From positions 1 to 64,000 of the forward strand of contig JAKSYS010000289.1 in the NCBI GenBank assembly GCA_022925895.1: a stretch of 64,000 bases of DNA, given 5' to 3'. The stretch is from Fragilaria crotonensis (lineage: Eukaryota > Bacillariophyta > Fragilariophyceae > Fragilariales > Fragilariaceae). Positions 2,461 through 26,591 of this stretch are shown piece by piece; positions within the stretch are counted from its first letter, which is position 1; the number at the start of each line of letters is the position of its first letter. The notes beneath the pieces were generated by a model, which had not been told where the DNA came from, made no database searches, and worked only from the letters and a program-made list of their open reading frames with translations. The translations under genes were made by a program, and so were the position numbers.

Positions 2461-2843
2461 TGTTAAATAATCCTTGATACAGTATAACACTAGCCAGTAC
2501 GATATTACAACCGTATTGAATTTCCTTTATCTGTATTGTGAGCTTTACTGTTAGTCTCTATTTCTAGACTCCAATCCCATCAGCTGCAATTGCATTCCCA
2601 TTCACCACCTTGTGAATCCCATTCACACCAATAATAGACTCTTCAGTCTTCCTTCTGTGTGGAGCTTCTTTAGTCTTCTTTGCTTTAGCCTTGGCCTGGA
2701 TTACAGTCCAACCATCAACACTGCCGTGATCACCGGAACAGATACTAGATACTGGTGTACTGTCGTTGTTCGAGTAGTGTCCGGATGACACAGTATTACT
2801 CGACACATCTTGAGCAGCACTTGTAGCACAGTACATCTTGACA
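2461..2843 (-). repeat. LTR (3' copy) of the reduced copia element
   Basis: A 383-bp direct repeat nearly identical to 4734-5116. It has TG...CA ends and is preceded by GTATCT, which recurs just after 5116. Confidence 0.9.
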
Positions 2844-4733: not shown

Positions 4734-5116
4734 TGTTAAATAATCCTTGATACAGTATAACACTAGCCAGTACGATATTACAACCGTATTGAATTTCCTT
4801 TATCTGTATTGTGAGCTTTACTGTTAGTCTCTATTTCTAGACTCCAATCCCATCAGCTGCAATTGCATTCCCATTCACCACCTTGTGAATCCCATTCACA
4901 CCAATAATAGACTCTTCAGTCTTCCTTCTGTGTGGAGCTTCTTTAGTCTTCTTTGCTTTGGCCTTGGCCTGGATTACAGTCCAACCATCAACACTGCCGT
5001 GATCACCGGAACAGATACTAGATACTGGTGTACTGTCGTTGTTCGAGTAGTGTCCGGATGACACAGTATTACTCGACACATCTTGAGCAGCACTTGTAGC
5101 ACAGTACATCTTGACA
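4734..5116 (-). repeat. LTR (5' copy) of the reduced copia element
   Basis: A 383-bp direct repeat nearly identical to 2461-2843 and followed by the target duplication GTATCT. As the element lies on the minus strand, this is the upstream LTR. Confidence 0.9.
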
Positions 5117-5989
5117 GTATCTATCTGTCAACACCAGTGGAAACTATGCACATCTTTTGAAAAGGCATGATTAAAGTGGTAACATTTTTGGTTCTTAAGA
5201 ACGTTCCACAAAGCAAATTAGCAGTGTTAGATGCTCTTGCAATCCGGGTTTCACAGGACACATCGCCACACGATTCGCTGCACGTTTCCCGCAACTGATT
5301 TTAGCCAAGGGGTAGCCAATTTGACCAAAATATCAGGGGTGAAATGGGTGGGCTTGGTCTTTTTGTTTTTCATTCTTGAGCAATATGATGAAGGATGGCA
5401 GATTATTTAATCCACATTCAAAGCACAGGGCTCCAAGGCTGAGCTTATTTTCTACGGAGCGAATGGTAAACTAAGTTGAATTTTGTCAATGCTTTGATTG
5501 GTGTATGACAATTAACAAGTCTGCTTCACCTTCTCCGGTCCCAGACGCTCCCTTTGCTGCAGAGAGATGAGTTCAACTGATTGAAAACCGATTGAATTAC
5601 TCAGTTTTCTCTAGCTAGCAACATAGAATATCAACTGCATACTACCAGTGTCTAGTCTCCCGGGCCATTTGCCTTAGTTTACCCCATCACCTGCCTTATT
5701 TAACATTTAACCCCACCATAGATCCCATGTACAAAAAATACTGTCATGATAAAGATGTTGACATTCATGAAGGTACATTTTGAGGCTAGGATAATGTTAA
5801 CAATCCAGATCTCACTCACAACGGTTGCCTGCACTGACCACATCTAGTGGCGATCATCACTATTTCAATCATCACCACATAATGAGGAAGTACGCATCAG
5901 AAATGAAAAAAGGGTCCCGAGTCATTCGATGAATCTTCGTCTGAATACTAGGCTGGCCTTGTAGGTCATCTTCGCCCGCTTTCTTGAAG
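5117..5989. other. Intergenic, no gene seen
   Basis: The left part (to about 5500) has the CpG-poor character of 1-2460 and continues the sequence split by the copia insertion. The right part leads to the 3' end of the minus-strand channel gene and should hold its 3' UTR. No open frame of note and no repeat was found. Confidence 0.5.
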
Positions 5990-8900
5990 CTATAAGAGAT
6001 TCATTCTGTGATCACCCAGCACGGCAGTTTCTAGCCTCTCCGCGAGGTTCAATTCATGGGCCTTCAGATTACTTTCAGCAGCTTTGATGCGAAGTTCCAC
6101 CTGTCGGTCAGATTCAGAGATTGCTGCCAAAATGGTACTCTCCAACTGACCGATGTGTTTGGTCCACTCATTCCTTTCGTCGTTGTCCACACCATCAGTG
6201 ACAGACAAATTGCCGAACAGTACGCTTCTTATCAAATTTACCAATCTTCGCATCACAACATCTATGTGCCCAATGATGTACGCAACGCCTGACATACAAG
6301 ACAAAGACGACAGCACGCTGGAAAACAGGAAGTGGAAAACTGTCCACAAAGCAACGGTAAGAATAGTACTCATGGAAATAAGAAGTGTCAACAGTATGAT
6401 ACTGGCATTGTCTTCCAATAGAGCGCTGACAGCCTGCCGAACGAGGAAAACTTCGGCGAAGAGAACAGTCGTTAGCATCCCCAACAGAACCACCCATCGA
6501 AGCACCCGGCTAACAATGGTCGCACATCGGTGCGGATCCAGAATGCTACCATCCACATGCAGAGATGCCAGTGGATTTTGCCCAGGCTGCAAGAATCGCT
6601 CAAGGGCAAGATGCTCCGCCAAAAACCCGATGCGAGCCTTTCCGAAGAGAGCTTTCGCGCCAACCTTCGAGCTCTCGTATGAATCACTAACAATAGCGAT
6701 CAAGACATTCAGAAGGATGATGACTCCCAAGACAGTGAAAGCTAGAAACACAGCTGTTGTAGCGTTGTTACCACGATAGTCATTGACTTCGAAATCTCCA
6801 AGGAGCACACCATCTGAGGGAACAAAAATTTGATGAGCGCGCGAGACAAAGTATGAGTCCAGAGGAACACTACGTACACATGCGAAGGTATGAGTCAACC
6901 AGCTGTCCCGAGCAGAAGTCACTTTGAGCGTCGGAATCTCCTGGACAGAGGGGCTGGCCACTCTGCTCGTCGTTCGTGGTGGTAAACAAGATGATCATGA
7001 TACTGCATAAAGGGAAAGAAACGATAGTGCATCGTTGTGAGCCACATCGATTCAAAGTCGTTTGAATCGGCGATCGCACGTTTGTACTCACTCTCCGAAC
7101 ATCATGATCACGACAACTAAAACGACGAGGAACGACCGGATGTCAAGTACAATCCGCACCAATGATAAGATGAAGGTCGCCATTTGCATGTTGACAGCCC
7201 TGAGAAACGACAATACTTTGAGCCAGAGCAACCCCAGGACAAATGCATTGAGGCTTGGGTTGGAGCTAAGGCGAATTGAAAAGGCGTGAGCTTCGATACC
7301 GAGAATGATCGGACTTTGAATGGTCTGTTTCTACTTACAACCCCGCACCGCGGTTAACACTGTTAATAGAAAGGACAAGAGCGATAGAAAGAAGATCAAA
7401 AAGGTTCCAAAAGTCAAGAATATGAGCCTTGAATACAGAACGCGAGATGCTCCACAACGCCATCCCCACGCTGACCTTTCGAGCCACGAAGAACGTCGTT
7501 ATCGCTGCGACAAGACAATCTTAGTCACAAAATACATCCGCGAACGCTGCTTTAGCAAGATATTTCTCACCTGTTACCACTGCCGACGGGATTGCTGACA
7601 AACCCCCGAGGTCCCCAGACACCATGACGTCTGATCGGAACGACAACATAAGAGTAATGTGAAGGACGAAATCAATAAATACGATGCCAATGACAAAGGG
7701 ACGCATCAATCCCTGATGCAGAATGTACCACAGTGCGCTCCCAGACGTCGCCCGACACAATTCCTTATCGTCTACCACCGCCAGTGAAAGGATCAACTCT
7801 CCGCCCATGTCACCAAGGGCCTTGAAGACTTGAGATTGACTCTTTCGAAACGCCTTTCCTAGCTCTGTCATTTCATCACTATCATCTAACTCAACGATTA
7901 CATTACCGCCAGGATAAAAATGATCGATAGAACAATCACTTAGGAGCAGAAGATAATCAACAGCTCGTCGTCGACTGACCAATCCGTTGTGTCGCACCAT
8001 GGAAACCAACCAAGGTCCTGTGACCAAGGGTTCCAACAAGAGGCGACGTATCAATGGCAAATTGAAGATGCGGTGCCGCTCCTGTTCGGGTTCCAGTAGC
8101 AGTAGTCTGGGCAACAGATGAGGGACGTGCGTCGCAATGTTGACACATATTTTCTGTTGCAAAACGACAGACTCTGTATCAGGTATCTCATCCGCTAGCG
8201 TGATGGACGTGATTGCAAGGGACAGGACATTGAGGGCACTTTCGAAGGACAGTGTAAGGCGCGAGGGAGCAAAGTTGCGAAGCTTTCTACCTGATCTTCC
8301 CCTTGTTGTATCGATTGACGACAACGGCAAAAAGGATTTTTTGGATGCAGCCAATGAGATCACTGTGCCCATTCCGCGTCGTACAAAATTAGAGAGAGGA
8401 ACCTTTGGAATCCTTTTCTCGGTCAAGCTCCTGTTGATCTACCCACTGCTGGATCAGTGATTGACAAGGCCAGCCATCTTGAGAATCAACAGACGCAGCG
8501 GCAGCCGGATTGATGCCAACCAGTTCCAACGCAAACACGTGAGCATCAACTCGACGTTCCCTGGCATGGTAACTGTTCCAGAGAAGGTGATTTTCCGAAA
8601 GGATGTGCAGTGGAGTTTGGCCTCTATCATCGCGCACGAACGGTGAATCTGGATTGTGCGAAAGGCAGGCGCGGAGTTCTGACAAATTCGTTCGAGGAGC
8701 GGCACAAAGGAGGTGGAGGCGAGCCTGGTCCCAACTCTCCGATTGCATCGGAACCATCGACCTCCCGACTTCCATCTCAGAGGCGACCATGTTTTGCATC
8801 TCTGTTACCATAGAGGGTATTCCTTTCCTCTGAAATCCTACTATTCATGCTTTCATCGAGATTTCCAGTCAACGAACTCGATTCGGTGGCAGGAAAAATT

Positions 8901-9391
8901 GTCCATTGTGGTTGGCCCAGGCCCGGCACATTTGCGTCTTCTTGTTCGGGGTCTTCCCTGACAGGAGTAGAACCTGTCGAAGACCGTGTAACCATGGATC
9001 GAAGCGTTGGAGATAAGATTGACTTCTGGGCATCTGGTCTGCCCGTGTTTGTGATTGTATGTTCGTGATCATTCGCAATCCCTTTGGTCCGCAGCGTAAT
9101 AATGAGACGACCTGAAAAGTTGGTGAGCTCCAGCTCTTCGATGAGCGGATGCAGACCTTGTAGGCATACCTCTGTTGTATCATGTGTACTACCGTTATCA
9201 TCCTCTCCTCGCCTTTGCGTCAGACGTACTTCATTGAACCCATTGGAACGCCTGTCTGCGTTTGATGTTGGCTGAAACGTTAACTCTAACTCGGTACCTG
9301 AACTATTGCCGTCCAAGATGATGAAGACTTGCTGTCCTGGTACTGCCACGGGCAATAGTCCTTTAGAAAGTGAGGAGGCAGAGGAATCCAT
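5990..9391 (-). CDS. TRP/polycystin-like ion channel with ankyrin-like segment, multi-exon
   Basis: A predicted plasma- or organelle-membrane cation channel. The last exon (6813-5990) begins just before GVLLGDFE, a pore-like motif, and continues into a long hydrophobic helix with VIILLNVLIAIVSDSYE, typical of S6 in TRP and polycystin channels. Exons visible upstream are 7002-6878 (MIILF..., acceptor TTTATGCAG, donor GTACGT), about 7290-7092 (WLKVLSFLRAVN... to MMFG, donor GTGAGTA), 7504-7339 (FWNLFDLLSIALVLS, an S2-S3-like motif, donor GTAAGT) and about 8420-7571 (donor GTGAGA). Reading phase is kept at 7571/7504, 7092/7002 and 6878/6813; I could not settle the exact acceptor near 7290. An upstream block at 8811-8390 carries an ankyrin-like motif (DRGQTPLHILSEN). 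The first block starts at ATG 9391 (MDSSASSLSKG). The joins near 8810 and 8430 are unresolved, so 9391-8810 could be a separate gene. Channel identity is fairly sure; ion selectivity is unknown. Confidence 0.65.
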
Positions 9392-11526
9392 AGTTGTGCA
9401 TTGTTGTTCAAACGTAAAGTTGTGATAGAATGGTATGATCTCGCACTGTACGCCACTCCGGCAGTACGCACACTGCACAGAGGGCTTCATTTCTTGATAC
9501 TCGGAGTCGGGATTCGGGAGACGGTCGTATTTTGCTCCGCAACACGTACGCCGTATTTTGTGAGTATGCGCACGCGTTGGGTATATTTCTTGGGAATGTA
9601 TATAAGCGCATGTGACTAAGTCAGTATTGGGACTCTTCCACGAATTCATACTATCATCTATCATCCATATATATGCATGCTTGATATTTCGCCATTCTTC
9701 ATTCTTCCAGAAGCCCCTATCATGTGACATTCACGTATGTACGAATACGATCAAGAATGTATCTATGAACATATGATATGAGAGTAACATATATGTGTAG
9801 TACAAGTACTCGTACAAGAGAAAATGTCAGATCTGTCAGATGCAGTGTGCAGTGTACCAGGGTACGTACTGTACCGTACATTGCCTCGAAACAATGGAAA
9901 GCGATGAATACATTCATAGGATTTTAATTGATAAATGACGAAGGTGTGCCAAATAGTCTACTTTTACTCCTCTATCAATTGCGTGTCAATTGCTGCTACA
10001 ACAGTACTAGTACTACCGGTAGTACCTGGTGCTAGTTGGACGTTGTACGTTGTCCGGAGCATATGAAAAAGATGTAACACGCTCAATAACGTCCCGCGTC
10101 CAGCACCCTATTAAATTCAAAATGAACCTAGAAGAACACAATCCAATATCCAAAATGGCTGCTCACCAAGCTGGGGAGCTTGATGCACCTTACAGAAACA
10201 CACAAATGATAACTTTTGTGTATGTCTATGATGTGTTGAGGGATCACAACTGCAATGTCAACAGTCAATTCCTGCTGGGTATGATCTGCAGCTACTACTA
10301 ATGATTCAATGAAGAGTGTGGTCTGTTACAAAGTTGAAACTCTTGATGGTAGCACATATCCACATCTTGCGTCCTGTTGGAATTGTTTTATCTCTTTGCA
10401 TGATGATTATGGCAACAACAATACCAAAACTGAAATCATTTTCCCAACTTGGCTTCTTTTTTCTGATAGAATCCTTGGCTCTGCATCACCACTGACTAGT
10501 CCTCAGCCAATTAGTACCTGCTTTGAAATCACATAGTTCTGTTGCCGGCATCGTTGATAACTGGTGATTAACATCACCAATACATCTCAACAAACAGAGG
10601 ATGCAACCATCTAGAAACATTGCTAGTAGTACTCCAAGTACTTGCTCATAACTTCATTGTTTATCTTGTAACAATCATCAACCAGCTGCATTAAAAACCT
10701 CAAGAAATCTGTTTCCATGCCGCCTTGTGCATTGGTGTGGTACTATCATCAGCATTGTTCCACTAACAATGTCCTACAACAGCTAAGCTAGTAAACTCTC
10801 CTTTGGTGTTTTCCTTGTCGTGAGATCACATCCCTCAACATCTACTCCATGAGAATAAAACACAGAAACCAATGGGATTCTTTCCAATTTGATTCTACTA
10901 CTGATGTCTTCAAAATCATTGTTAGCTTTAGTAGGTGTGAAATGAGGCACCCGCCTATTATGAGAGTGGAGTAAAGTAGTAGAGGACCAACTGTGTCCTC
11001 GTCTGCCACATGAGATCATGAGATCGCATGCCTCCATCATGACTCCAGCTCTCTTCAGGTATATCGATCTTCATTGAAAACGTTCCATCTGTGCATGGTG
11101 CAACTGTACCACTGGAGCACAGGCGTTTACGCACCAGATAGTTACAGTACTTGCATGACAATACGTTTCTACTAGAGTGCTACTACATCGGTACAGTAGG
11201 TATCATTTGGAAGGTCCAGGAACTCAGAGATATTTAGCTATCTTCATTTGGAAGTCTGTTCGCAATCCATTCCAAGTCGTATGCATAGGTGGCAGGTTTG
11301 ACGACTGGAGACTGGAGAGCCACTTTGCCAGCGCCGACCACAAGCAAATAGAGTCTTTCCATCTCTCTTGAGCGCACATTGTACTTGAGGCTTGAGGTGT
11401 CTACCGGCAAACGAGTTCATCTCGGTTCCAGCCGCAGCATCATTGTTATTATCATCAACTAGAACTACAATTACAAGAACGAAATATAAGCACGCACACT
11501 CAGACATTGCAAAACATTTGGTAGCC
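9392..11526. other. Intergenic region between two divergent genes
   Basis: The stretch lies between the start of the minus-strand channel gene and the plus-strand ZNF598-like gene, so it should hold both promoters. The part 9730-10030 has several short palindromes built on AGTAC/GTACT. The part 10100-10800 is CpG-poor and resembles 1-2460 in composition, probably decayed repeat. Short open frames here (for example 10309-10536 plus, 10783-11040 minus) have no recognisable domain and I do not call them genes. Confidence 0.45.
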
Positions 11527-14134
11527 ATGGATGGGCACGTACCACAATGCATCGTCTGTTACACGGACTTGACACATCCGTGTGTGACTCCCTGTGCTCA
11601 CAATGAGGTTTGTGGAACGTGTCATTTGCGACTACGCTATTTGCATTCCGATAAGAAATGTCCCATTTGCAAGCAGGAGAATCAACAAATCATTGTTGAT
11701 CGCTTCGAAAACGTCAAGTTGTTTGAAGAATATCCACTTTGGGGTGATGAGCTTGGTGCCGATTATATCTTTCGGGATGATGTGGGAATGTTCTTTCCCA
11801 AGGAATACTACGACGCTCACATCCTTTCGTTGTTTGGTAACCACTGTGGAGTATGCAATAATTATGATGGGGTTAATGTTAGTGCTGACGGCAACGCTAA
11901 TAGTAATCAAGATCCATCCGACAAGCGGAACAACCACAATCAACAACAGCAAGGCAAGAAAGGAAATAGGGCAGCGATCACACCGGTCAAGAGCCTATTA
12001 GATCACTTGAGAAACAAGCATCGCCTGACTCTTTGTGAATTCTGTATTGACCACAAGAGAGACTTTGTGGCTCTCTTGCCTCGCTTTACACCGTCACAAC
12101 TGAGATCGCACATGGCGTCAGGAGACAGCATCGAGACGGGCTTTCGAGGACACCCCCTGTGCGAATTTTGCCGCCCAAAGCGCTTTTATGACTTGACGCA
12201 CCTGCACATGCACTTGCAACAAGATCACTACAAATGTCACGTATGTGAAACACAAGGACTGGCGAATCAGTACTTTCGAGATTACGCGGCTCTGGAAAAA
12301 CACTTTGATCGGCAGCACTTTCTTTGCAAGGACCCGCAGTGTGTTGCAGCACGTTTCATGGTCTTTGAGAACGAAATTGATTTGCGCGCGCATGAATTGT
12401 CAGTTCACGGAGGTACATCGACGGGATCGACCAAGATACAGTTGCAGTTTAGAGTCCGACGAGAAGGATACTCTGGTGCGGGTTATGAGAGTCAAACAGT
12501 GCCGTCTGATGATGACTTTCAATACGGAATCGACGGCGAAGCCTTCGTCCCAGAAGGTCTCCCGCAACAAGAGCGGGGGCCTAACGAGGAGACGAGCCAT
12601 CCACTACACTTTCAGCGAACTGAAGAGTTCAGAACACTGGCCGCAGGAATTCGAGCAGCGCAGCAAGTCGGGACTGCAGAGGAAGCCTTTCCATCGCTTG
12701 GTGAGGCGGCTGGCCAGTCTGAGGGTATTCGAATGGGATGGACAGCTGCAGGTAACCTGCAGCGATTTACGAGACCTGGAGTAGTCACTAATTCTGTGGA
12801 ACAGTTTCCTTCCCTCACGTCTGCATCGGCATCAGCTGGAAACTCCAACACTTCTGTAGCCGCAAAGCTCAGAGCTGGTGGTGTTTCCGGCAGTCGGCAA
12901 TTTTCAGCCATGCGCAATGCCGCTATGGGGAATATCCCGGCTCCTGCCTCAAATGACTGGGCGTCACAAGCGGCGCGTCCCGCAAGTGGCAGAACACAAG
13001 CTCCGTCCTTCGCCCATTCGAGTGCCGGTTCAAGCGTGAACCGTCAATCTGATTTGGGCCAAGATAACTTCCCATCCCTGGGAGGAGCAAGTCATACCAG
13101 AGCAAGCTATCCTTCGTTTCCTTCCAACAGCGCCAGCAGAAGTAGTACGACAACACAAAACGTTCCTTCCATAACAGCAAGCGACTTTCCGTCATTAGGA
13201 GCCGCAAGCAAAACACGTGCGACCTACCCCGTCAATGCGAATGTTGGTAATCGAATCGAAGCGCGAGCTCCACCGCTGAACAACTCAGTGCACTTTCCGC
13301 CGCCGCCGAAGGTTTCCTCCAAGAAGAACTCGGTGAGAGAGAAATTACTCGGAGATCGGAAACCAGCTCCCGTTAACAACTTAACAAACTTTCCACCTCC
13401 CCAAAGCAATCAATCGTTGAAACAAGGAATGGCCACTGTTGAAGAAATGAAAGCATCGCTGGGACTAACGAACTACAAAGAGTTGAAGAATCTGACAAAA
13501 CAATTTGCTGCTGACGAGATAGCACCCGAAGCTTACGTGGACCGCGCCGCGGCATTGTTTGATAGCGGCTACGGAGATTCTGACTTTTGGCACTTCCTTC
13601 CTGCACTGCTTATTTCTTGTCCGAACCAGACATCGGCTGGACAAGCTCTGCGCTATGTCGACGACTTGAGGTCGGCACATCAGGCGAGTACGGCTCCATC
13701 TCCGACAACGAGCTGGACGGCACCTCCGCCACTGTCTGCATCGTCCGGAAATTTGTCGACTAATCCTGCTTCTGCGTATCAAAGATCTTCGGTACCACCG
13801 CCTCCGCGGTGCAATTCGACCCGTTGGCATGGCAATTCAACCGATAACATCGTTGCCAGTCCCCAACGGCGCCCAGAACAACAGCAAAGGTGCTTGGGAA
13901 ATACGGGAGCATCGTCAGTTGTGCGAGCAAAGCATCACCAGTCAGCGTCGCAGTAGCCGCTGCAGACCAAAACCCTCAGAACGGAACTGCTACTACCTAC
14001 ATGGCCAAAGAATCAAGATTGCAAAGTCAGCGCAATCATGCCACAAAGCCAAGTCCAGGAATTCCTGGGGAGGACAGAACAAGAAGAAAAAGAAACAGAG
14101 CGCCGAACTACGCTCCTTGGCGTTCGGCAAGTAG
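11527..14134 (+). CDS. ZNF598/Hel2-type RING E3 ubiquitin ligase
   Basis: ZNF598/Hel2 proteins ubiquitinate small-subunit proteins of collided ribosomes and start ribosome-associated quality control in the cytosol. The start ATG at 11527 sits in a good context (GCCATGG), and a C3HC4 RING begins at residue 8 (CIVC ... CAHNEVCGTCH ... CPICK). The family's run of C2H2-type fingers follows at about residues 155-300: HRLTLCEFC, HPLCEFCRPKRFYD, HYKCHVCE, HFDRQHFLCKDPQC and FENEIDLRAHELSVHG match the conserved order of the family. The C-terminal half is low-complexity with at least four FPSL motifs, also a family trait. The main frame is open to 13956; a better family-like end (NKKKKKQSAELRSLAFGK) lies in another frame ending at 14134, so one or more short 3' introns between about 13800 and 14060 are likely. 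The frame also extends upstream to 11392, but 11527 fits the RING position. Confidence 0.85.
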
Positions 14135-14849
14135 ATAAGTCACAAGCATTTCGTTTGCCGAACACTTTTTGTCGGTGAAACGACCGGAGGGAGATGCAAT
14201 CATACCGAGAGTAACGTATTTAACGAGGCTGTGCAGTTTCATATGTCCCGATTAGATTACCACGGACACTCGGTAATGCAGAACACATTCTTTGTCAATG
14301 TGCATTTACTATAAGGGCCCTAAGATACAAAAAACGATACAGCCCGAACACTAATAAGGTTCAGACTTTAGACATCGGGACTAAAAACTCAGGCATACAG
14401 CATACAAGCATACAGCATACAGCATACTGTGCATACATGATGCTGTCTGCGCGATGACTATGCCTGAGCACACAAAATTCGGGGGAGTGTGATGGGAGGG
14501 CAGAATGCAAGTTCACAGTTCGATTCCCTTGATAACACACATCTCGCTTCTCGAAGGTCATCGAGTTGAAATAGTACGACGTAAGGTGAGTCCAAGGTTG
14601 GAATCAACGTAGATGACTCTTCGCACATACCTACCGTAGGGACCGTAGGTTTAGCCGATGCATCGATGCATCCAACGCCTTCCGAGCCGATCCAAAGACC
14701 GCAGGAGACCACCAGCGAAATAAACTGGTAGTGGGTGGGAGGAGCTCTTTCAACGGCGAAGGGCTAGGAAAGAATTTCTGCGTAACAATATCGCCGTCTG
14801 AAGATGTAGCAGCATGAAGCACTGCACGACTTCTTCATTTCTCTTTCAG
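14135..14849. other. Intergenic with short CATACAG tandem repeat
   Basis: This follows the ZNF598-like gene. At about 14390-14440 there is an irregular tandem of CATACAG/CATACTG units. A strong donor-like AAG/GTGAGT lies at about 14586 on the plus strand, which may belong to the small gene proposed next. Nothing else was recognised. Confidence 0.4.
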
Positions 14850-14971
14850 ACGAGATCGAGGTGCGCAAGAAGGTCATGAAGTCCAGAATGACGGAGCTCC
14901 TCATTCTGAACGTTGAAACTGATAAGCTACGCCAAGTTCAGCGAATTGTTACGGCCCTGCCGCAATTCTAA
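14850..14971 (+). CDS. Possible last exon of a small unknown gene
   Basis: A perfect-looking 3' splice site (pyrimidine-rich TTTCTCTTTCAG ending at 14849) is followed by an open, protein-like stretch: EIEVRKKVMKSRMTELLILN, then about 20 more residues ending TALPQF and a TAA at 14969-14971. The sequence is charged and helical and looks like the end of a small coiled-coil protein. The upstream exon is not settled: an in-frame candidate near 14500-14586 ends at AAG/GTGAGT, but its phase does not match cleanly. Function unknown. It may also be chance. Confidence 0.25.
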
Positions 14972-15953
14972 ACTAGTTTGCGATAATGTTGCCTTATGCT
15001 TTCATATCAAATAAGCATTAAACCCTCGTTAATCCCACGTGCTCGATCGCCTCCCCTGGGTCTTGATCTTACACCCTCAATGAAGGATTAAGCGGAGACC
15101 AAATCTTAAAGAAACGGACAACACAATTGTATACTGGAAAACATATCATCGGTTCCCCTTCCAAATGGAGGAATATCTCATTTTCCTCTACCTGAACATT
15201 CGCACTACGCAGGTACATCTTTCTCGCTGTGGTGGCTCGGATCCAGTTCTACCAGAAACAGGTGGAAGACTCTTCTGAAGACCACGGAGCACAAAACACG
15301 GTGAGGTGAGTATAGTTTCGATTGCCCAGTCTTGTAAAAGCCCAACAAGAATGCAACTGAATGACGTCAGATCTTCGGTTGGTTGTGGCAATTTTTATAC
15401 GACTTAACTCTTTAAAACAGCGACATCCGGAAACGCACATTTGAAACGACAAAGATTCGCTCCGGAGGGCATAGTTCCCTTGCTATTATTTAAGTACTTA
15501 ACTTTCTGCGTCCTGGGTCGATCAACAATGTCGTATCCTCAGAAACCTCCGGCTCGATTGTAATGTACCCGGTACAAGACTGTTAATAAATCCTGGGAAA
15601 ACAGAACAACGTTTGACAAACGAAAAAGTAAGTTCGCCGTGATACCCATTAAAAAATCGGACAAAGTGTCGACAGTAACGGAAACGGTACTCTAGGAAAA
15701 ACGAAGAACACATGCTCTCGAGATTTAACGTTGTTGTGTCGCAACTCCTTCTTGCCGTAATCGTAGAATTGCGGTAAAATGCCTTACGCAAATAACGGGT
15801 CATCCTACATACGTAGGTCACGAATTTCTCTGTCACAAATTTGGTGTTCTGTTGGAGACAGCATCACAAAAACGTTCGCACAACTTCTGACGAAGTCATT
15901 TTGTGCGCACGAAGATATACAAGTTCTCGAAGGTTTGAAGCAGACATCCAACG
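14972..15953. other. Intergenic upstream of the bZIP gene
   Basis: No convincing gene. Short open frames on both strands have no recognisable motif. The right end should contain the promoter and leader of the bZIP gene; the plus-strand frame starting at 15779 (74 codons) may be a 5' exon of it, but no clear splice pair was found. Confidence 0.4.
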
Positions 15954-16223
15954 ATGATCATGACCGAACTCCAGAAACTGCCGTCGTCCCCTCCCATTGA
16001 ACGTCATTAGGTCGGCCTCCGTCATTGCTGGAAATGTTGTTGAAGACTACAGAGAAGCCATCGGAAACCGTGAGGCTGCTAACATTGAAGACGACAGCGC
16101 ACCATCTTCGAATTCTGCGTCGAAATTGAATCGTTCCGCTGGCGATGAAGATGAAGACACATCTGTCGATGGCTCGGCCGATGGCGACAATGCTCGAAAG
16201 AGAACAAGAGAAAGCGAAATGTC
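15954..16223 (+). pseudogene. bZIP gene, 5' part, cut by a copia insertion
   Basis: The open frame reads an acidic, serine-rich region (SAGDEDEDTSVDGSADGDNA) followed by basic RKRTRESEMS and stops being host sequence at 16223. There the retroelement begins, flanked by ATGTC (16219-16223), which recurs at 21965-21969. When the element and one ATGTC are left out, the host frame continues directly into the bZIP domain at 21965. An acidic region before the basic region is usual for activators. The true start is unsettled: ATG 15954 lies in a different frame from the acidic stretch, so a small 5' intron near 15990 is likely, and an exon at 15779 is possible. Confidence 0.7.
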
Positions 16224-16551
16224 TGTTGAAACCACAATATCAACACACAGTACCTACGTGCCAATCAGACAACGATACAGTACTGCAGTCAACACTGGGA
16301 GATTAAATCGCTTGTAAATCGGAAAATTAAATTAGAATGAGACTATCACTCGTTTCCCAAGCTGGTCCGTTTACAATTGACCTTTTCGTTCACACGTGAT
16401 ACGTTCTCAGTCTTGCCGGCACTCAATCGTGACAGCTTCCGTTTCTCCTTAATGCCTTGTTTAGACTCCACGGTTCTCCATCCGGTATCCGTTTCGTCTC
16501 CGTTCGTCCTCTCACTATGTCCGGTCATTCCGACAGTAATATTATTCAACA
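16224..16551 (-). repeat. LTR (3' copy) of the bZIP-gene copia element
   Basis: 328 bp, TG...CA ends with the short inverted ends TGTTG/CAACA. It appears identical to 21637-21964 and is preceded by ATGTC. Confidence 0.93.
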
Positions 16552-18349
16552 CACTCCTGCAATCCTGCGATCCATCATCGTAGGTCGTAGGATTGACGTT
16601 CATGATCTCGTCACGGAACTTCATAAATTGCATCCCTTGCAAAGGTTTCGTAAAGAAGTCACCAACCATTTCGTTGGTAGGACAATGCTCAATTTTGACC
16701 TCTCCAGAGGCCACTCGATCCTTGATAAAGAAATAACGGATGTTGATATGTCGAGTTCGCTTTCCACTTGACGCCTTCCCGTTTTCGGCCAGTAGGATCG
16801 TACTTTATTGTCCTGATAGACAATGGATTCGTTAACTGCGTATCCCTGGGCCTCCAAGAAATATCGGGTCCATAAGGCTTGTGGAAGAATGTCGTTTACC
16901 CCAACCAGTTCGGCCTCAGTTGAACTTTTCGTATTAATCTTTTGGCGAGTGGAAGTGCCGTAGATTGCCCCTTGCCAAGCATCATCACGCCACCTGTATG
17001 ACTTCGCATATCAGGGTGCACCGCAAACGAAGCGTCAACCCACCATTTAACGATGTTACATTCGTCAGCCTCCAAAGTCAAGGGCATTTTAACCGTGCCT
17101 CGCAGGTACATCATAGTCCTGCCCAATTTTTGTAGTCGTCGACGTCCGGTTCTTTACGCGAGTACATAGAAATGCCACTGCTGTCTGTATGTCCGGCCGT
17201 GCGCGCATAGAAACAGAAGCTTGGCCACGTTGTGATGGAAAAAATCGGACAACTCGGTGTTCAGCTTTTCTGCATCATCGTTCACATCGAATAGATGCGA
17301 TGATGCCGGTGACCTGACTGTTCCTGACATGTCGGCCGGCAATTCCGTTATCATGTTCTCGATGTAGTCGATCATCGTGAACTTAACCTTGCCCTTCACG
17401 CTGAAGTCGATCGTCATTCCAAGGTATTCGTGCACCTTTCCTCTTGAGATCGTGAGCGGGCCTCCTTCCCAAATTCAGACTTCAGCAGCTCGATCACGTC
17501 ATCAACGACCTTCGGGTCAACATGGGAGATTTTAAGGTCATCCACATGCCACAAAATGGTACACTGTTTACCATTGACAATTTTGTTGGCGACACAGCTG
17601 TCATATGGGTTCAGAACAAATCCCCATTTGATTAGTTGCTTGCTTAGCTTTTTCCAAAACAGAAATGCGCCAGTCAGCGTGCCGTACAGCGCCTTCTCCA
17701 GTTCCACATAGAGTACCATTCGCCCGTTTTCCATCTGAATGTACTTCCGATACATTTTGGGATCAATTCGGACCATGAGCTCTGCCATCTTCCCTTCCAA
17801 TTTCATGTGGACTGTTCTTTCACCTTTCATCCCGACCTGCATGAATGCAGCTGGGAGGTCAACCACCCCATCTCTTTCTTCTTTGGCGTCAATTGTGCAC
17901 GATAGCATGACGGACTCAGTTGCGACTGTTGGTGAACTCGCCTCTTCCTTGGTTGTGTATGGTCGCTGTTTTCTGCCGTCCGCACAGCCTCTTCCTTTAC
18001 CGTGCCATCTCGTTTCTGCTTCAAAAACATCAGGTATTGTAGTGCCGCCTCGCGCTCTTCATCGGTCATCTCGTCCTTGCCCCTTGGCCTTATGACCTCA
18101 CGGTCATACAGTTGCGTTAGTTCTTTAAGCACGGCGTCAACGCCGGCCTCGCCAAAAATTCGGGCCCTTTTCGGACGCTGTGCTGTGTCATGGCGATGGA
18201 CTCGAGCGTAGCGTGTAGGTGGCCATAATCCCGCGGCTTGCGGGCCCGAAGATTATATTTCCCAGTCTTCTTCCGTATCGCACGTCCATGAGTTCGTCAA
18301 CTTGCATTGCAGGTCGCGCAGCCTCGACTTGTATTGTTGGCGCGACTGG

Positions 18350-18870
18350 AGCGATCTCGCCCTCTCTCGCGACTTCGTTCGCGTCCTCGTTCGCGTCTCT
18401 CGCAACTTCGTTTGCTTCTTCGTTCGCGTCTCTCGCGACTTCGTTCCTTCGCCGTTCGCTTCGCTTCGTTCGCTTCTTCGTTCTTCTTCGTTAGCTTCGT
18501 CGTCTCTCGCGACTTCGTTCGCTTCTTCGTTCGCGTCTTCGTTTGTTTCTTCGTTAGCTTCGTCGTGGGCGTTTCTCGCGACCTCGTTCGCTTCTTCTTC
18601 ACCAGCTTCACCAGCCTCTTCTATCGCGACATCCGGGATGTCTTCGTCGTTTGCATCCTCTTCTATCGCGACACCCGGGATGTCTTCAGCGTTCTCTTCA
18701 ACGTTCTCTTCAACAATCTCAACAATCTCATCATCCACTCCTGCGATCTGACCGTCGATCCAGTCATCATCATCGTCGTCGTCATTAGCTGGGTCGTCGT
18801 TCGGATCGAAATCATCATCATCATCATCGTCATCATCATTCGCATCGTCGTCATCATCGGGGATTAGCAC
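18350..18870. repeat. Low-complexity tandem repeat inside the copia pol region
   Basis: Degenerate repeats of TTCGTTCGCG / TCTCGCGACTTCG (plus strand) and runs of CATCAT/CGTCGT. On the coding (minus) strand they encode Asp-, Glu/Ala/Asn- and then Arg/Thr-rich tracts between the integrase and reverse transcriptase regions. They also create long open frames on the plus strand, which I regard as chance. Confidence 0.7.
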
Positions 18871-21636
18871 TCCTGCCCGATCGGAAAACTCAAGGGGAGT
18901 TAATTCGAGATCGCGACGCGATAGTTTGTGCACTCGATCAATAACGTCTGCGGGGATTGGGAGCTCCGTCCATTGTGTGCGGTGCAAGCGCTTACCAGTT
19001 GTAAGGCTGTAGAAATAGTGTCCCCCTTGTGCGTTACCCGTTGGGCGGAGCGCAATGGCACCCGTCGTACGCGGTAGCATAGAGTTATCGTGGGGTTCAT
19101 GGGTCTGGACGTAGGCGCCGAACTCGATCTTGCAATGAGTGGCGTAGTCAATCGTCGACCCCACCACGAGCTCGAGGGCTCAACACATCGGAAATGCCTC
19201 TTTGGACAGGGAAACTGTTGAGCCAGAACACGACGTAGTGTATGAGCTCGATGACGATCCTTGCGGGCAACTGTTTGAACGGCAGCATGCCGACCACACT
19301 CTGGATCTTTCTTTGATGGTCCGGATGTGGCGCTCTATTTCAGGCACATGTTCCTCGGCGGCCACACAATTAATGCTGATTCCCAGCTCCGCAACGTCAC
19401 CGACGAGACCGTCCTTGTCGAATTCGCCGTCCATCAATATCACCTCAATGTGAAACCCACGTTTTGCATACGTCTGGTGCACATGTGAGTGATGGCCTTA
19501 AAGATTGTGTCGGATTTTCGGTTGGTTAGAAACTCAGATGTTGAAAACCGGATATTCCTCGAAATCGTAACGAAAAATGGAAGCTTGTTTACGAACATGA
19601 TATCACCGGCCAGAGTTACCTTCCGGTACCGAGACATTATGGTAGCTGGTATATTGGTGTATGTAGCCTGCACTGCTTTTGGCGTCTTTCGGACTGTTTT
19701 GCCCATGAGCGATCCGACCTCTGGGCCAAATATACGCTCCGCTGCAATAATGTCCTCACGCTTGACAGGACAATTTTGGAACAGGTTCTTGTCCACAATG
19801 CCCAGGAATGTCTTAGTGCTTGGTCTTCCAATAATTTTTTGTACCTTTCGGGCCAGTACCGCCTTCGAGTAGTCGCGTTCGGAGTACTTAGTACGGTTAT
19901 CCTCTACCGTATTGATCAGGTTCACGTCATAGTGTCCTGTGTCTTCATGGTCCTGCTCCTTGGTATCGATGTAATACAGCCCCTTCGGGGATTGCTTGAA
20001 AACACGCACCGTGCCGTCATGCTTGGTTAGGTGAAAGGCATTTCCTTCCTCGGTATCAAATGTCACGCGGTACCCACGTTCCTTCGCCTTCGCGAGAGAC
20101 AATATGTTCGCAATGCCTGTAGGGTTGTACCATACAGTTCCGTACCCACGGAGCTCGCCGATCAATTTAGTACTGGCAATGCCTGCGTTGCAGTGAATGT
20201 CCATCGAGTTTGAATGCTCGCGAATGTTCGATAGCAGCTTTTTGTTGCAAAACACATCAACTGTAGACTGGTTATCAAGGAGGATCCAGTCTCGCGGAAG
20301 CCTGCCGTCGTGCTCGATTTGCATGACAACCCCGTGGTCGGAACCGGCAGCGCCGACGTTAACGAAGGCATAGTTGGCGACCTCATCTTGGTCATCAAGG
20401 AAGTCGATGTCGTACATGCCACTCGTAAGTAGCGTCGTTCCTGACTGTTTCTTGACTGGTTCAGCTGCTGGCTTCTTCTCATCACCCTCCGCCACACGTT
20501 CACCATCGCACTCGTTTGCGTAGTGTCCTTTCTTCTTGCAGCGGTGACACGTAATGTGTTCTTTACTTCTGGGCTTGGCCTTTTTGTCCCCTTTCTCGTT
20601 GTCGGCGTTTACGAAAGCAATCTCCCCTTCACCTCCCACCTCGCGCTGTCCAAGTCGAGGATTGTTCTGGTAGTTGGAGAGGCGATGAAACGCATCGGCC
20701 CTGCTGCTGGGATAGCGAGCGTTACCCTCGTTATAATCGTTGTTGATCCCTTCGATGTACTTGCCGAAACGAGCACGGTCGCATGTCAACATGAACGCAA
20801 CTCCAAGGATCCTGTCTCTGATTTCGGCCTTCAAGGTACCGAGCTCTGCAGGGGTCATTGTGGCCTTGTCTCTCCCCGTTTAGGACGTATCGTTCCATTC
20901 CGATGTCATCATCGATGTTGCCGCCAGTATGTTCGAGCACATCAACGAGATTGTTGAAAACGGTGAGATGCTCCTTCAGAGTAGTGCTTCCGTTTTGCAT
21001 CAAGTTGAAGTATCGCTTCTTTGCTTCATGAATGGCCCTTCCTGGATAGTTCTGGCTTTGGAACGCGTATGCAATGTTCTTGATCAGGATGAGCAGTTTC
21101 AAGCCGTCGCCGCTTCGCCAGATCTCGTCCCAGCCAGTGCTCGATTCCAGCTTCTGCTGCATCATGTCGGTGCATTGGCCCCATACGAGGGCGTATAACT
21201 TCTTGACGTTTTCGTTGAAGCCTGCCATCTGCTTTCCGACCATTGTGACTGCGTCTCCCCACAGCTTCTGCTGACCAGCAGTTGCCGTTGGCGGTAGGTC
21301 ATCTGGTAGAAAAAACGTTGGTGCTTCGAGAGTGTCGATAGCGAGGCGAATGTCGCCGCCATGCTTGAAAGTCCTACCGCAATAAGCGGATAACTCCTTC
21401 TTGGTTCTGACGAACGTGTCGGCCATTTTCGATTCAGAACAATCAAAGATAGCTCCGTTCAGCTCGTCACATTTTCCTTCAAACTTCTTCGATGCGACAC
21501 GATGACCCTTGTTGAAGTTGTAGCCTCTCTTCTTGGCTTCGCCTTCTTCCTTGTCCTTCTGTCCTGCATCACTGTTGCGCTCGGTCCTTTCCTTGGCCTC
21601 TGCCATGATTAGGTCTTGAGCTTTCTAATTTAATTT

Positions 21637-21964
21637 TGTTGAAACCACAATATCAACACACAGTACCTACGTGCCAATCAGACAACGATACAGTACTGCA
21701 GTCAACACTGGGAGATTAAATCGCTTGTAAATCGGAAAATTAAATTAGAATGAGACTATCACTCGTTTCCCAAGCTGGTCCGTTTACAATTGACCTTTTC
21801 GTTCACACGTGATACGTTCTCAGTCTTGCCGGCACTCAATCGTGACAGCTTCCGTTTCTCCTTAATGCCTTGTTTAGACTCCACGGTTCTCCATCCGGTA
21901 TCCGTTTCGTCTCCGTTCGTCCTCTCACTATGTCCGGTCATTCCGACAGTAATATTATTCAACA
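21637..21964 (-). repeat. LTR (5' copy) of the bZIP-gene copia element
   Basis: 328 bp, apparently identical to 16224-16551 and followed by the target duplication ATGTC at 21965-21969, which also supplies the ATG of the downstream bZIP frame. Confidence 0.93.
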
Positions 21965-22477
21965 ATGTCCCCAGCCGAACTACTCGAAGAGCGAAGGTCC
22001 AAGAATCGTCGGTCGGCACATCAGTCTCGCCTCAGAAAGAGACGTCAGCTCGTGTATTTTGAGCAGCAGGTTCATCTCCTTATGGACGAGAACCAGAAGC
22101 TTGTCACCGCCAACGAAGCTATGACTAAAGAACTCGCAGCCATTCGAACTGAAAACGCGGAATTGCGGGTGATGCATCAAGAAGCCGTTCAAATTGCACA
22201 TACTCTTCGCCTAACTCAAGGAGGAGGGGGCCAAGATGCTGCCAGAATCACACAAGCTCTTCGGTTAGCTCAGCATGGAGGTGGGGGGCCAGAAGCTGCG
22301 AGAATCGCACAAGCGTTTCGGTTGGCTCAGCACGGAGCTGGGAACCAAGAAGCCGTGAGAATCGCACAAGCTCTTCGGTTCTCTCAGCAAGACAGTGACG
22401 ACGAAGCCGCGAGAATTGCGCGTGCTCTTCGCTTATCTCAAGGTGGTGGAAACCCTTCGATGTTCCGTCGCTTCTAG
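21965..22477 (+). CDS. bZIP transcription factor, 3' part with complete bZIP domain
   Basis: The frame encodes a full basic region, with the N-x7-R signature in SKNRRSAHQSRLRKRRQ, followed by a leucine-zipper-like heptad stretch (LVYFEQQVHLLMDENQKLV and onwards to about residue 70). Such proteins bind DNA as dimers in the nucleus. After the zipper come five tandem repeats of about 19-20 residues (EAARIAQALRLAQHGGG and variants), then FRRF and the stop at 22477. The ATG at 21965 comes from the target duplication and lies in the host frame, so this half could still be made as a 170-residue protein lacking the acidic N-terminal part, if something transcribes it. The gene's own promoter is now 5.7 kb away. 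The repeats have no known role that I recognise. Confidence 0.8.
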   Translation: MSPAELLEERRSKNRRSAHQSRLRKRRQLVYFEQQVHLLMDENQKLVTANEAMTKELAAIRTENAELRVMHQEAVQIAHTLRLTQGGGGQDAARITQALRLAQHGGGGPEAARIAQAFRLAQHGAGNQEAVRIAQALRFSQQDSDDEAARIARALRLSQGGGNPSMFRRF

Positions 22478-23629
22478 AATGAGCAAACGATCAATATGCG
22501 GGGGTGGTTGACGGTTTAAGGCTGGACTCACCGTGAACTCGAGTAGGTAAATGCACATTAATTGATTAGAACGAACGAATCTTATGTTCATTGGTTCTCG
22601 CCGTAGACAGCGGAGGAACTTCTCGATCCTGCTAGGGTGCAAAGCACAAGACGGGAAGTTGGAGGGTGAGTTAAAAAGTCAAGAACGTCAATGTTTCGTT
22701 TGCGACTAACGTGTTGTGAACGTGTCGCAAAGGCGACACTGAATGCTGGTTTACGACCAGCGCAGTCATGCTGGAGTTCGGGAGTTCTGGTGGTCAAGAT
22801 GTCGGACTTCTAAAACCCGAAACATCCATATCTCATTTCGAACGTCGGGGTTCGGATGACACATTCAGCAGTCTGTTATGGGATATGGAACATTGGGACA
22901 ATGGATAAACCCTTCTTGAGCGCTGGTACTGGACATACGTAACAGCTTCGTGGTCACAATGTCACATCGCAAACTGCCGGAACCAACCCACCAGAGTTGG
23001 AAACAATGGAACACATGCAGTACAAGTAACACGTAACAACCTGACAGCAAATTTCCTGCCCTCACGACACTGGCTCAAAAATTCGTCTCCATCCAGAATT
23101 GACGTACACATCACGCCACAATGTAGGTTCATAAATCCTGTTCTAATTTTCCAAGTTGGACTGCACTCATCCCCAAGAAAGTTTTTGGATATAGTTGACT
23201 TTGTTGTCAAGCAGTTTGGAAAAGAAACATGGATATCATGAAGGCAATGAAACAAAGCCGGTGGCGTATCATCAATCCTTCCAAATGACATTGAGCTGGA
23301 CACTTATGCTTGCACTCATACCATACCTACACAGCATACTGAGGTGGCTACATGTAGTCATCAGATGCTCCAAGTGGCGACAAACCGCACGCCATCTATC
23401 CTCCTAGTGGTTAAAACCGCCACAGAGAGGAGAAGGTGAAGTGAAACTGAATTATACATAGACGTACAGTAGCTGGCGAATGGCAGTTCATCATTGTTCA
23501 TTGATTCCGCCGTGTGAACAGTATGATCGTGCCAATTCCTTTTGTGACTATGCAATTGAGGGAACCTTTTCCTTAATCTCCACCGGGTTTCGTTCTGCGA
23601 AATCGTTGCCTCGTGAAACAAAAAGTGAC
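22478..23629. other. Intergenic, no gene seen
   Basis: The stretch lies between the bZIP gene and the convergent minus-strand gene ending at 23630. The part about 22900-23350 is mildly CpG-poor. Short minus-strand open frames (for example 23303-22962) have no recognised motif. Confidence 0.4.
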
Positions 23630-25681
23630 TTACGTCTTTCGTGCCGCTGCACCGGAGCCCTTCTTTTCCATAACACTTGCCATGCAAATCAAACTGCAAA
23701 GATTATGTTGAGAATAATCATTGCGTAAATCCGTAGTCAATACTGAGCTGTGAAAACCACCCAGAATGCGCTGCGGGTTCCGCATATACATTGCTTCTTC
23801 TGGTTGATATTGAGTTTGAAGTTGGTAGCGGATAGACAGGGATGATGTATCATACGCGAGTTTCCAGTCCTCACCCTTCTTCTCCAACAAGTCGATAACG
23901 GCACAGAGACCTTCTGATTTTGTTGCTGTGGCAGTAGAACTCAAGTCGTCGTAGAATATTCCTAGCCGATCAACATCATCAAAATCTTTCGTAACATCGG
24001 GTACGCCATTTTGGTACTTGCTGACCACCTTGACACTTCGCACAACATGTTTGATAAATTGAGCTGGAAGCTCATGACCGACGGCATCCATTTCGGCGAT
24101 CGCATAAAGAAGCCAATGATCAAAGGTGAATTCAGAATCATCAGCTTCTTTCATGTCCATCGTGACCATGTAGGAAACAACAGCTTCCGCTGTCTTCATC
24201 CAACTCTTTCTCTGGTTATACAGAGTAGTCCATTTATTTTCCTGAGCCAAAAACGTCATTCTCGACAAGGCAAAGGCGACTTGACCGTGAAAGTATCGAA
24301 CAAAGAACTTCGTATCGATTTCCAAAAGCTTGTTGTCGTTCGAAAGATGAACCTTCTGAACCAGGCTTCCCGCATGCTCTCCATCTGGATGCATGGACCC
24401 CTCGAGGTATTCAGCAATTTGAGAAGCGAGCACTAACAACTCGGATGAATCTATCGGCTTGACGGCATCCACGTACTCGACAATGGCCAAGACAGTGAGA
24501 GCATTAACACCAAGATTTGCCATCTTGACCTTATCTTCTGTTTCAAAGTCAACCGAACACTTGGCTTTCTTGTCTGGAGAGAGCGGAATAGGGCAATCTT
24601 GAATCGACTGCTTGAGATAACCCAGGGTACGCTCCATGGCTTTACTGAGATTCGAATCTTGCCACAATCGAAAGATTCGCGCCATGGCATACAACGTGCC
24701 AGCGTGTCTGGAAAGGTTGTAGCCAAAGGGTTCATAATCAGATCGTGGATTGTATCGATAGACTTGTCGACCAGTATCCTTGACCATCTGCGCCAAGTAC
24801 GCCCCAGTGTCCTTGGCACGGCTCAGTAGGAGTTTCGAAGTCAAAGTATCGTACACTCGGTGCCCGTGAAACAGTTTATACTGCGCCTTTGCACTCATGT
24901 CGATAAAGACGGATTCTGTGTGGAAAATATCTACTTGATCGATCGATGTAGCATCATCCCCATAATCCGGCAGGGCCAGTGCTCCGTCGATGCGCCCCGT
25001 TCGTGCAGCATAGAGAGCCAAGCGCTCCCAACGAATGAACCGATGCTTGTCAACAAGAGCATTGTTGTGCACTTCTTCCGCAGTGAATATCCAATCCGTG
25101 TCCCAATTAAAGGCCAGTCCGAACCAACGAGAGGGTATCTGCTTAAACTCTTCGTAGTAGTTGTAATCTTCGAATCGCTTCACACCAGTAACAATATCAA
25201 TCTTGACATAGGGAAACTGGTTCGTCTTGTGAGGCAGTTTCGACTGCGCAATCTTCAATGCTGCTTCGGGAGAGATTAGTGATTTCCCAAAGCCCACATG
25301 AGTTTCATCCTTTTGTAAATTCGACACGGTGCAAAAGACAACGTATTGATTGTCGACGGCGCCCTTGGTCACGGCACTAAACAACGACGCCACAATTGGT
25401 TCCTCTTCGTACTTTTGAGAATTGCCCAAAACACGATTCTTGATATTCACCACCTTGTGACGGACGCGATCATTCGTATCGAAGCGAAGGATGAGTACCA
25501 GGATAACGATAAGGACAAATATGGCGTAGCTCAAGTACTTGGCGTAGGTTGCCAATGCCTTTATCCGTTGACGACTCTTGGGTTTGTACGGTTTGACTTC
25601 GACACCATTGCGAGCTTCCTTGCGTACAAGAGGAAGCGTATCGCTGTTGTTGTCACCGCCGCGACGGTGCTTTATAGCCAT
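23630..25681 (-). CDS. Single-pass membrane protein with predicted toroid-like domain, paralogue A
   Basis: 683 residues in one open frame. The N-terminus is short and basic, with one membrane helix at about residues 47-66 (LSYAIFVLIVILVLILRF), so a type II topology with a large lumenal or extracellular domain is likely. The rest looks like a helical toroid of the six-hairpin glycosidase type. Motifs shared with the neighbour at 26592-28574 are YNLSRHAGTLYAMAR, LGVNALTVLAIVEY, FVRYFHGQVAFALSRM, FDHWLLYAIAEM, STATATKSEGLCAV and RNDYSQHNLCS. A C5-epimerase- or glycosidase-like role on glycans would fit such a fold, but I cannot name a family, and function is unknown. The two genes are tandem, same strand, 0.9 kb apart, so they arose by duplication. 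Confidence 0.8.
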   Translation of the reverse strand: MAIKHRRGGDNNSDTLPLVRKEARNGVEVKPYKPKSRQRIKALATYAKYLSYAIFVLIVILVLILRFDTNDRVRHKVVNIKNRVLGNSQKYEEEPIVASLFSAVTKGAVDNQYVVFCTVSNLQKDETHVGFGKSLISPEAALKIAQSKLPHKTNQFPYVKIDIVTGVKRFEDYNYYEEFKQIPSRWFGLAFNWDTDWIFTAEEVHNNALVDKHRFIRWERLALYAARTGRIDGALALPDYGDDATSIDQVDIFHTESVFIDMSAKAQYKLFHGHRVYDTLTSKLLLSRAKDTGAYLAQMVKDTGRQVYRYNPRSDYEPFGYNLSRHAGTLYAMARIFRLWQDSNLSKAMERTLGYLKQSIQDCPIPLSPDKKAKCSVDFETEDKVKMANLGVNALTVLAIVEYVDAVKPIDSSELLVLASQIAEYLEGSMHPDGEHAGSLVQKVHLSNDNKLLEIDTKFFVRYFHGQVAFALSRMTFLAQENKWTTLYNQRKSWMKTAEAVVSYMVTMDMKEADDSEFTFDHWLLYAIAEMDAVGHELPAQFIKHVVRSVKVVSKYQNGVPDVTKDFDDVDRLGIFYDDLSSTATATKSEGLCAVIDLLEKKGEDWKLAYDTSSLSIRYQLQTQYQPEEAMYMRNPQRILGGFHSSVLTTDLRNDYSQHNLCSLICMASVMEKKGSGAAARKT

Positions 25682-26591
25682 GGTTCAAGAGTGATGAGAG
25701 AATGCAAGGTCACGAAGTGTAGACAGTAACGTGCAGCGTCGTGGATCTCAATCGCGGTACATCGTCCGTCCAGCAAACTCGAAAGCTATCCATACATTCA
25801 TATTATATGTATACTCGTAGTATATTATATGCTTCACTCGACGACTTCCCACTCCGAGACTCCCAGTACCTGGTTCCTGGCACTGGTACACCTTGTAGCT
25901 ACTAGTGCTTGTATCTCCAACGCCGGTCTCCTCGCTCGTCCTCTGACGGATCGTACAGTATTAACAAATAAGACGTTGCAGCCGGACACTCTATGATATG
26001 AAATTCGTATCTATGCTGTATGCTGAGAGCAACGTACGAGTATAGTACAAGTACTCCAACACACGATTGTCCCTACATGCTGGTGCCATCTTGACAGTGC
26101 CGAAAAAAAATGCACATGGCACGTATGCATAGTCATCAGAAATTACATGTTACTGGTCCACAAGGTAGGCCTTCATGTTTCATGCTTCATGATGTTACTG
26201 AGGCATGAGAAGAAAGCGACGCCTGGAGTAGAAAGCGACGCCTAGAGTAGAAAGCGACGACAATACATGAGGCAAAAAGCCTGAAAAATTGGCTGTAGAA
26301 CGCTCATAATTTGTTGAATTAAACTACCAGCTGTCCGCATTGATTACTCATAGGAAACGTCCAGGTGCTTTACTGAATGCTGCATGTTCTCGTTAACGCA
26401 TCGACCATCCTGGAAGGGATAATGAATGAATGTTTTCAATCGCTATGCTATGCATTTACTTACAGCATACATCCAACTTGTTTTCTTTACACATGCGAGG
26501 GCATCTCTCACTGACCCTACCTAGATATTAGAAAGCAGATGTGCGGAGTTCTGCGGTCAACGAAGAAACCTCAGCCTCGTCATCCATCATT
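25682..26591. other. Intergenic between the tandem paralogues
   Basis: This holds the promoter of paralogue A and the 3' end of paralogue B. It includes TATAT-rich sequence at 25800-25830, a GCTGTATGCTGAG motif near 26015 and the short tandem repeat listed separately. No further gene was seen. Confidence 0.45.
26211..26261 (+). repeat. Short 19-bp tandem repeat
   Basis: AGAAAGCGACGCCTGGAGT is followed by a second unit with one change and a third partial unit (AGAAAGCGAC). Non-coding. Possibly a minisatellite or binding-site cluster; no function is evident. Confidence 0.6.

Follow-up and report, generated by a model that had tools for sequence, protein, structure and literature searches.

Does a retrotransposon split a bZIP transcription factor gene at this locus, does an uninterrupted version of the site exist, and what would the insertion do to the gene? 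We analyzed a window of 64,000 nucleotides (the whole stretch of DNA under study, C213:1-64000) within its assembly, which comprises 62.1 Mb in 881 contigs. The insertion and its borders are made up as follows:

16224-21964, sense strand minus: Ty1/copia-type LTR retrotransposon of 5,741 bp, borders exact to the base
16224-16551, minus strand: 3' LTR in the sense of the element, 328 bp
21637-21964, minus strand: 5' LTR in the sense of the element, 328 bp
16219-16223, no strand: left target-site duplication, ATGTC
21965-21969, no strand: right target-site duplication, ATGTC

The original prediction of a copia element at 16224-21964 with an exact ATGTC duplication was confirmed to the base, and the two LTRs, described there as apparently identical, matched at 328/328 bases. 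The termini of the element read TGTTGA...TCAACA, and these TG...CA-type ends, together with the short target duplication, are those of a copia element. The computed chance of a given 5-bp match is about 0.001, a figure that is moot here because the same assembly holds the empty site. The ATG within the right ATGTC copy is not a new codon: it is an internal Met codon native to the host gene, which the insertion duplicated.

The coding content of the element was examined with Pfam and included the following open frames:

17417-18058, minus strand: open frame with a match to RVT_2, the copia-type reverse transcriptase (37.2 bits against a cut-off of 31.6, Pfam)
19443-20879, minus strand: open frame with CCHC zinc knuckle matches under the curated cut-offs (best E 0.0006)
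20731-21606, minus strand: open frame from ATG 21606, running leftwards, with a weak gag match under the cut-off (E 0.0033)

RVT_2 was also matched in frames of two sibling copies of the element (35.6 and 53.8 bits, Pfam). Zinc-knuckle and gag matches in the window and sibling frames ranged from E 0.0006 to 0.009 and were all under the curated cut-offs. The coding region of the window element is split over several frames. Integrase was not matched in any of the frames scanned, which were 10 of the 15 minus-strand stop-to-stop frames of the window element (at least 90 codons) and 3 of the 8 sibling frames (at least 500 codons). Pfam matches of element frames to unrelated families, at E 0.06-0.62, were taken as chance.

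The host gene lies on the plus strand, on both sides of the element:

15954-16223, plus strand: 5' part of the bZIP gene, an acidic, serine-rich N-terminal region; in comparison with contig C857, the frame opened by ATG 15954 is interrupted upstream of 15997
21965-22477, plus strand: 3' part of the bZIP gene, with 170 open codons that include the basic region, the zipper and the C-terminal repeats
22217-22443, plus strand: four tandem units after the zipper, spaced by 57, 57 and 54 bp (about 19 amino acids)

Analysis of the 3' half, open over its 170 codons, revealed a match to bZIP_1 (PF00170) of 31 bits against a cut-off of 27.6 (Pfam), in line with the earlier claim that this half retains the whole basic region and zipper. 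Its basic region has the N-x7-R form and the heptad residues F, L, L, M, I and L follow from R+10. In these features it resembles other bZIP factors, and it differs from them in the four units of about 19 residues that stand after the zipper. These units matched no Pfam family at E 0.01, and the 170-residue half matched no PDB sequence at E 0.01. The N-terminal part, as encoded in C857, has 89 residues, of which 18 are acidic and 10 basic (14 and 7 in the last 50). A C2-domain match of the N-terminal piece, with 17 bits against a cut-off of 27, was taken as chance.

A search of the assembly with DNA matched each half of the bZIP gene at two places, C213 and C857. The corresponding protein search of this genome gave five rows, namely C213, three on C857 and a distant bZIP on C749 (35%). 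We also considered two unrelated genes that happen to abut the element; this was rejected because both halves match the same pair of contigs and adjoin each other on C857. When the window flanks were joined, one open frame ran from 15997 through the basic region and the zipper to the stop at 22477. The host frame had been predicted to be continuous across the empty site, and this held from 15997 to 22477, but the start proposed for it, ATG 15954, is out of frame with the zipper here. This is because of two C runs, near 15988 and 15993, whose lengths each differ from C857 by a single base; in the window, ATG 15954 opens 18 codons and then reaches a stop.

The uninterrupted site on C857 was examined along the whole contig. 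C857 (14,730 bp) is collinear from its first to its last base with C213:10955-23430, two insertion events apart. At the position of the window element it has no element and a single ATGTC, and one bZIP frame runs from its ATG 4985 across the empty site and through the basic region and zipper. Identity to C213 was 98.4% over 10955-16223, 96.5% over 21964-22983 and 97.4% over 22979-23430. The other insertion event is on C857, at a site that can be placed in the window:

22979-22983, no strand: site GGAAC, empty in the window, at which C857 carries an 8,008-bp LTR-type insertion

This insertion occupies C857:6271-14278 (L035:6271-10000 and L036:1-4278), 0.5 kb downstream of the bZIP gene. Its two terminal direct repeats measure 576 and 587 bp and are 97.1% identical, and it has a 5-bp duplication, GGAAC. 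We named it LTR-type from its structure alone because the one frame scanned (L036:2921-3547) gave no Pfam match at E 1. Its termini are unusual, reading AGTC...GACT and not TG...CA. Each contig holds an insertion that is missing from the other, and the pair thus looks as two haplotypes would. Judged from these sequences, the window insertion is most likely heterozygous, with C857 as the other haplotype. The earlier guess that the insertion might be polymorphic gained support in this form, the empty site being on another contig of the same assembly and not in another strain.

Instead of an allele, C857 could be a duplicate that arose recently from a stretch of 12 kb or more, in which case the element would break one of two gene copies. 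What speaks for a duplicate is a third contig, C574, which matches parts of the region (window 5100-10900, 10794-11091 and 14319-15555, with 11092-14318 outside the comparison) and also carries an older duplicate, at 86-89%, of window 5810-9405. The older duplicate lies at C574:17009-20568, about 11 kb before the 99% match there. The 1245-base tail of C574 showed 3 mismatches and 22 gap letters against C213, compared with 10 and 27 against C857, and 137 bases farther up were identical to C857. Since the tail is nearer to C213 while these 137 bases equal C857, the two-haplotype picture is not clean. However, C857 consists of a collinear block and one 8-kb LTR-type insertion, and nothing else. 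Pairs of closely similar contigs are not confined to this locus: among 26 bZIP matches, three further loci showed them, with identities of 94.6, 97.5 and 99.5%. Moreover, in Phaeodactylum tricornutum the assembler Canu is thought likely to have split loci with one-haplotype LTR insertions into two contigs, as reported in PMC8147415. We consider a duplicate unlikely. A point against the two-haplotype reading is that window 23431-26400 was single-copy in the assembly.

The explanation that we hold to be highly probable is that a Ty1/copia-type element, one copy of a multi-copy family, landed in antisense orientation within the bZIP coding frame of one haplotype and duplicated ATGTC, and that C857 represents the other haplotype, on which the site stays uninterrupted. 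The interrupted allele would be inactivated because the insertion separates its acidic N-terminal part from the part that binds DNA and forms the zipper, and the uninterrupted allele would then supply the bZIP function. The left bZIP frame continues into the LTR and stops at 16317, and the DNA-binding part would be severed from its promoter; the effect of the insertion is therefore most likely to be loss of function of one allele, as far as the sequence can indicate.

A truncated dominant regulator, as suggested in the original prediction, would be a different outcome and found no support here. A transcript that starts in or near the right LTR, if translated from ATG 21965, would give a 170-residue basic-zipper protein that lacks the acidic N-terminal part and would dimerise with, and poison, the full protein. 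Such a product would be compatible with a 3' half that is open for 170 codons with the entire basic region and zipper, and with the end of the LTR, which supplies the A at position -3 of ATG 21965 (CAACA-ATG). In P. tricornutum, the 163-bp LTR of the element Blackbeard is reported to suffice for activation of a reporter under nitrate starvation (PMC2806351). The element is antisense, however, and its own promoter would be expected to point away from the zipper half. Because the sense of the element runs in that direction, rightward transcription would depend on promoter activity in the antisense direction. Three ATGs lie on the plus strand of the right LTR (21750, 21865 and 21930), and those at 21865 and 21930 open out-of-frame ORFs that overlap 21965. 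A truncated regulator of this kind is very improbable, and we give slightly less credence still to its extension, in which insertion would have turned one bZIP allele into an LTR-driven, perhaps stress-responsive truncated factor that acts dominantly alongside the full-length product of the other haplotype. Loss of function of the interrupted allele is the effect that we favour.

To place the insertion within its family, we compared LTR-like places across the assembly, of which there are at least 40. Those listed comprise 24 at 93-100% over the whole LTR (20 forming ten pairs, and 4 single) and 16 partial ones at 75-88%. The family is thus multi-copy, with at least ten copies that have paired LTRs. 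Among the ten copies listed, five LTR pairs had no difference, one had a single 1-bp gap and the rest had 1 to 4 mismatches; matching 5-bp flanks were found for 7/10. The copies on C149, C12 and C231 (L067, L071 and L072) had unmatched 5-bp flanks, as expected after inter-copy recombination. Identity to the window copy was 98.4-99.0% for five siblings and 88.5-88.9% for four, among the copies listed. Two of the single LTRs, at C768:18563-18895 and C428:9033-9365 (L075 and L076), each had CTGTT on both sides and are perhaps one solo LTR on two haplotype contigs. The flanks of the other two, on C377 and C551, were unmatched.

Joined flanks of three of the nine siblings (C875, C350 and C315) were searched against the assembly, and a near-identical empty site was not found for them. 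The joined flanks of C875 matched themselves alone, those of C350 had joined-site relatives at 78-81%, and those of C315 partially matched two places on C34, at 85 and 91%. The window insertion was the only one among four family insertions examined for which a near-identical empty site was present.

The insertion had been described as very recent. The absence of any difference between its LTRs (0/328) agrees with this, but the bound on age that follows is loose: below about 9.6 million generations (95%), if the P. tricornutum rate given in PMC6604790 is applicable here. LTR identity was accordingly rejected as proof of extreme youth, since 0/328 permits about ten million generations. Because C857 is without the element, the C213 and C857 sequences had probably already split when the insertion took place; nothing more about the age of the insertion follows from C857.

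We also examined whether the breaks in the host frame are real. The window breaks the frame in the 5' part through the two single-base differences described above, and in C857 several indels shift the frame after the zipper and before the repeats. One reading of these breaks is that decay of the gene set in before the element arrived, with the breaks in the 5' part of the window and the 3' part of C857 both genuine. In agreement with decay, indels are not in excess of substitutions in the 3' parts of the alignment between the two contigs (11 vs 15 right of the element, and 3 vs 7 beyond the second insertion). Against it, the global alignment of C213 and C857 contained 54 indel events vs 46 substitutions in 6775 aligned columns (40 vs 24 left of the element), with 31/54 indels in a short-run context, whereas the indel-to-substitution ratio measured in a diatom is 0.033, as stated in PMC6604790. 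BLAST, which aligned the same contig pair differently, counted 54 mismatches and 79 gap letters. In addition, for each bZIP half one of the two contigs has an open frame, and the repeat units of C213 stay multiples of three. We find prior decay of the gene doubtful.

Consensus errors would instead account for many of the breaks seen in the bZIP frame and, perhaps, of those in the element. This is indicated by a share of indels far above the 0.033 ratio, although standing variation need not follow that ratio. Private indels and substitutions in six copies of the element numbered 9/8 in the window copy, 5/0 in C875, 4/0 in C350, 5/2 in C315, 3/0 in C149 and 8/29 in C110.

Further features were noted in the window and elsewhere in the assembly. 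Window 2461-2760 and 4734-5033 form a pair of direct repeats, identical over at least 300 bp, whose starts are 2,273 bp apart; they are perhaps a short LTR element. The assembly gave 19 silicon-transporter matches, 18 of them over the family cut-off, and none was over the cut-off in 14 control genomes. These matches suggest that the DNA is most likely from a diatom, although they would also be compatible with other eukaryotes that form silica. Two of the open frames encode fused multi-domain transporters: C97:29749-33762, with 1456 codons and three tandem silicon-transporter domains, and C771:21664-24330, with 1008 codons and two.

Taken together, these data describe a base-exact copia insertion in a transcription-factor frame. 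The assembly also contains the uninterrupted site, on a contig that has a different LTR-type insertion half a kilobase downstream of the gene. The locus could be used to study whether expression differs between alleles near a young insertion. It also gives a warning that frame breaks in such an assembly may be consensus errors.

The window case is a further example of a type of event that has been documented in diatoms. Blackbeard and Surcouf, two CoDi elements of P. tricornutum, are described as copia insertions on one haplotype, with the other haplotype apparently intact (Maumus et al. 2009, PMC2806351). The window element is like both in being a copia-type element, most likely of a diatom and on one haplotype, with a target duplication. 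It differs in that element and locus are others, and in that Blackbeard and Surcouf were checked by PCR in several accessions, whereas here the comparison is between contigs of one assembly. The duplication reported for Blackbeard is TTCC (4 bp), compared with 5 bp here. Insertion inside a bZIP coding frame is a feature of the window element, unlike Blackbeard and Surcouf as they are presented in that report. Long reads of P. tricornutum are further reported to show that LTR insertions often lie in a single haplotype, with 33 novel copia-type insertions genome-wide (PMC8147415). The split-contig pattern thought likely in that work, a genome-wide survey, is the pattern that C213 and C857 display at this single locus.
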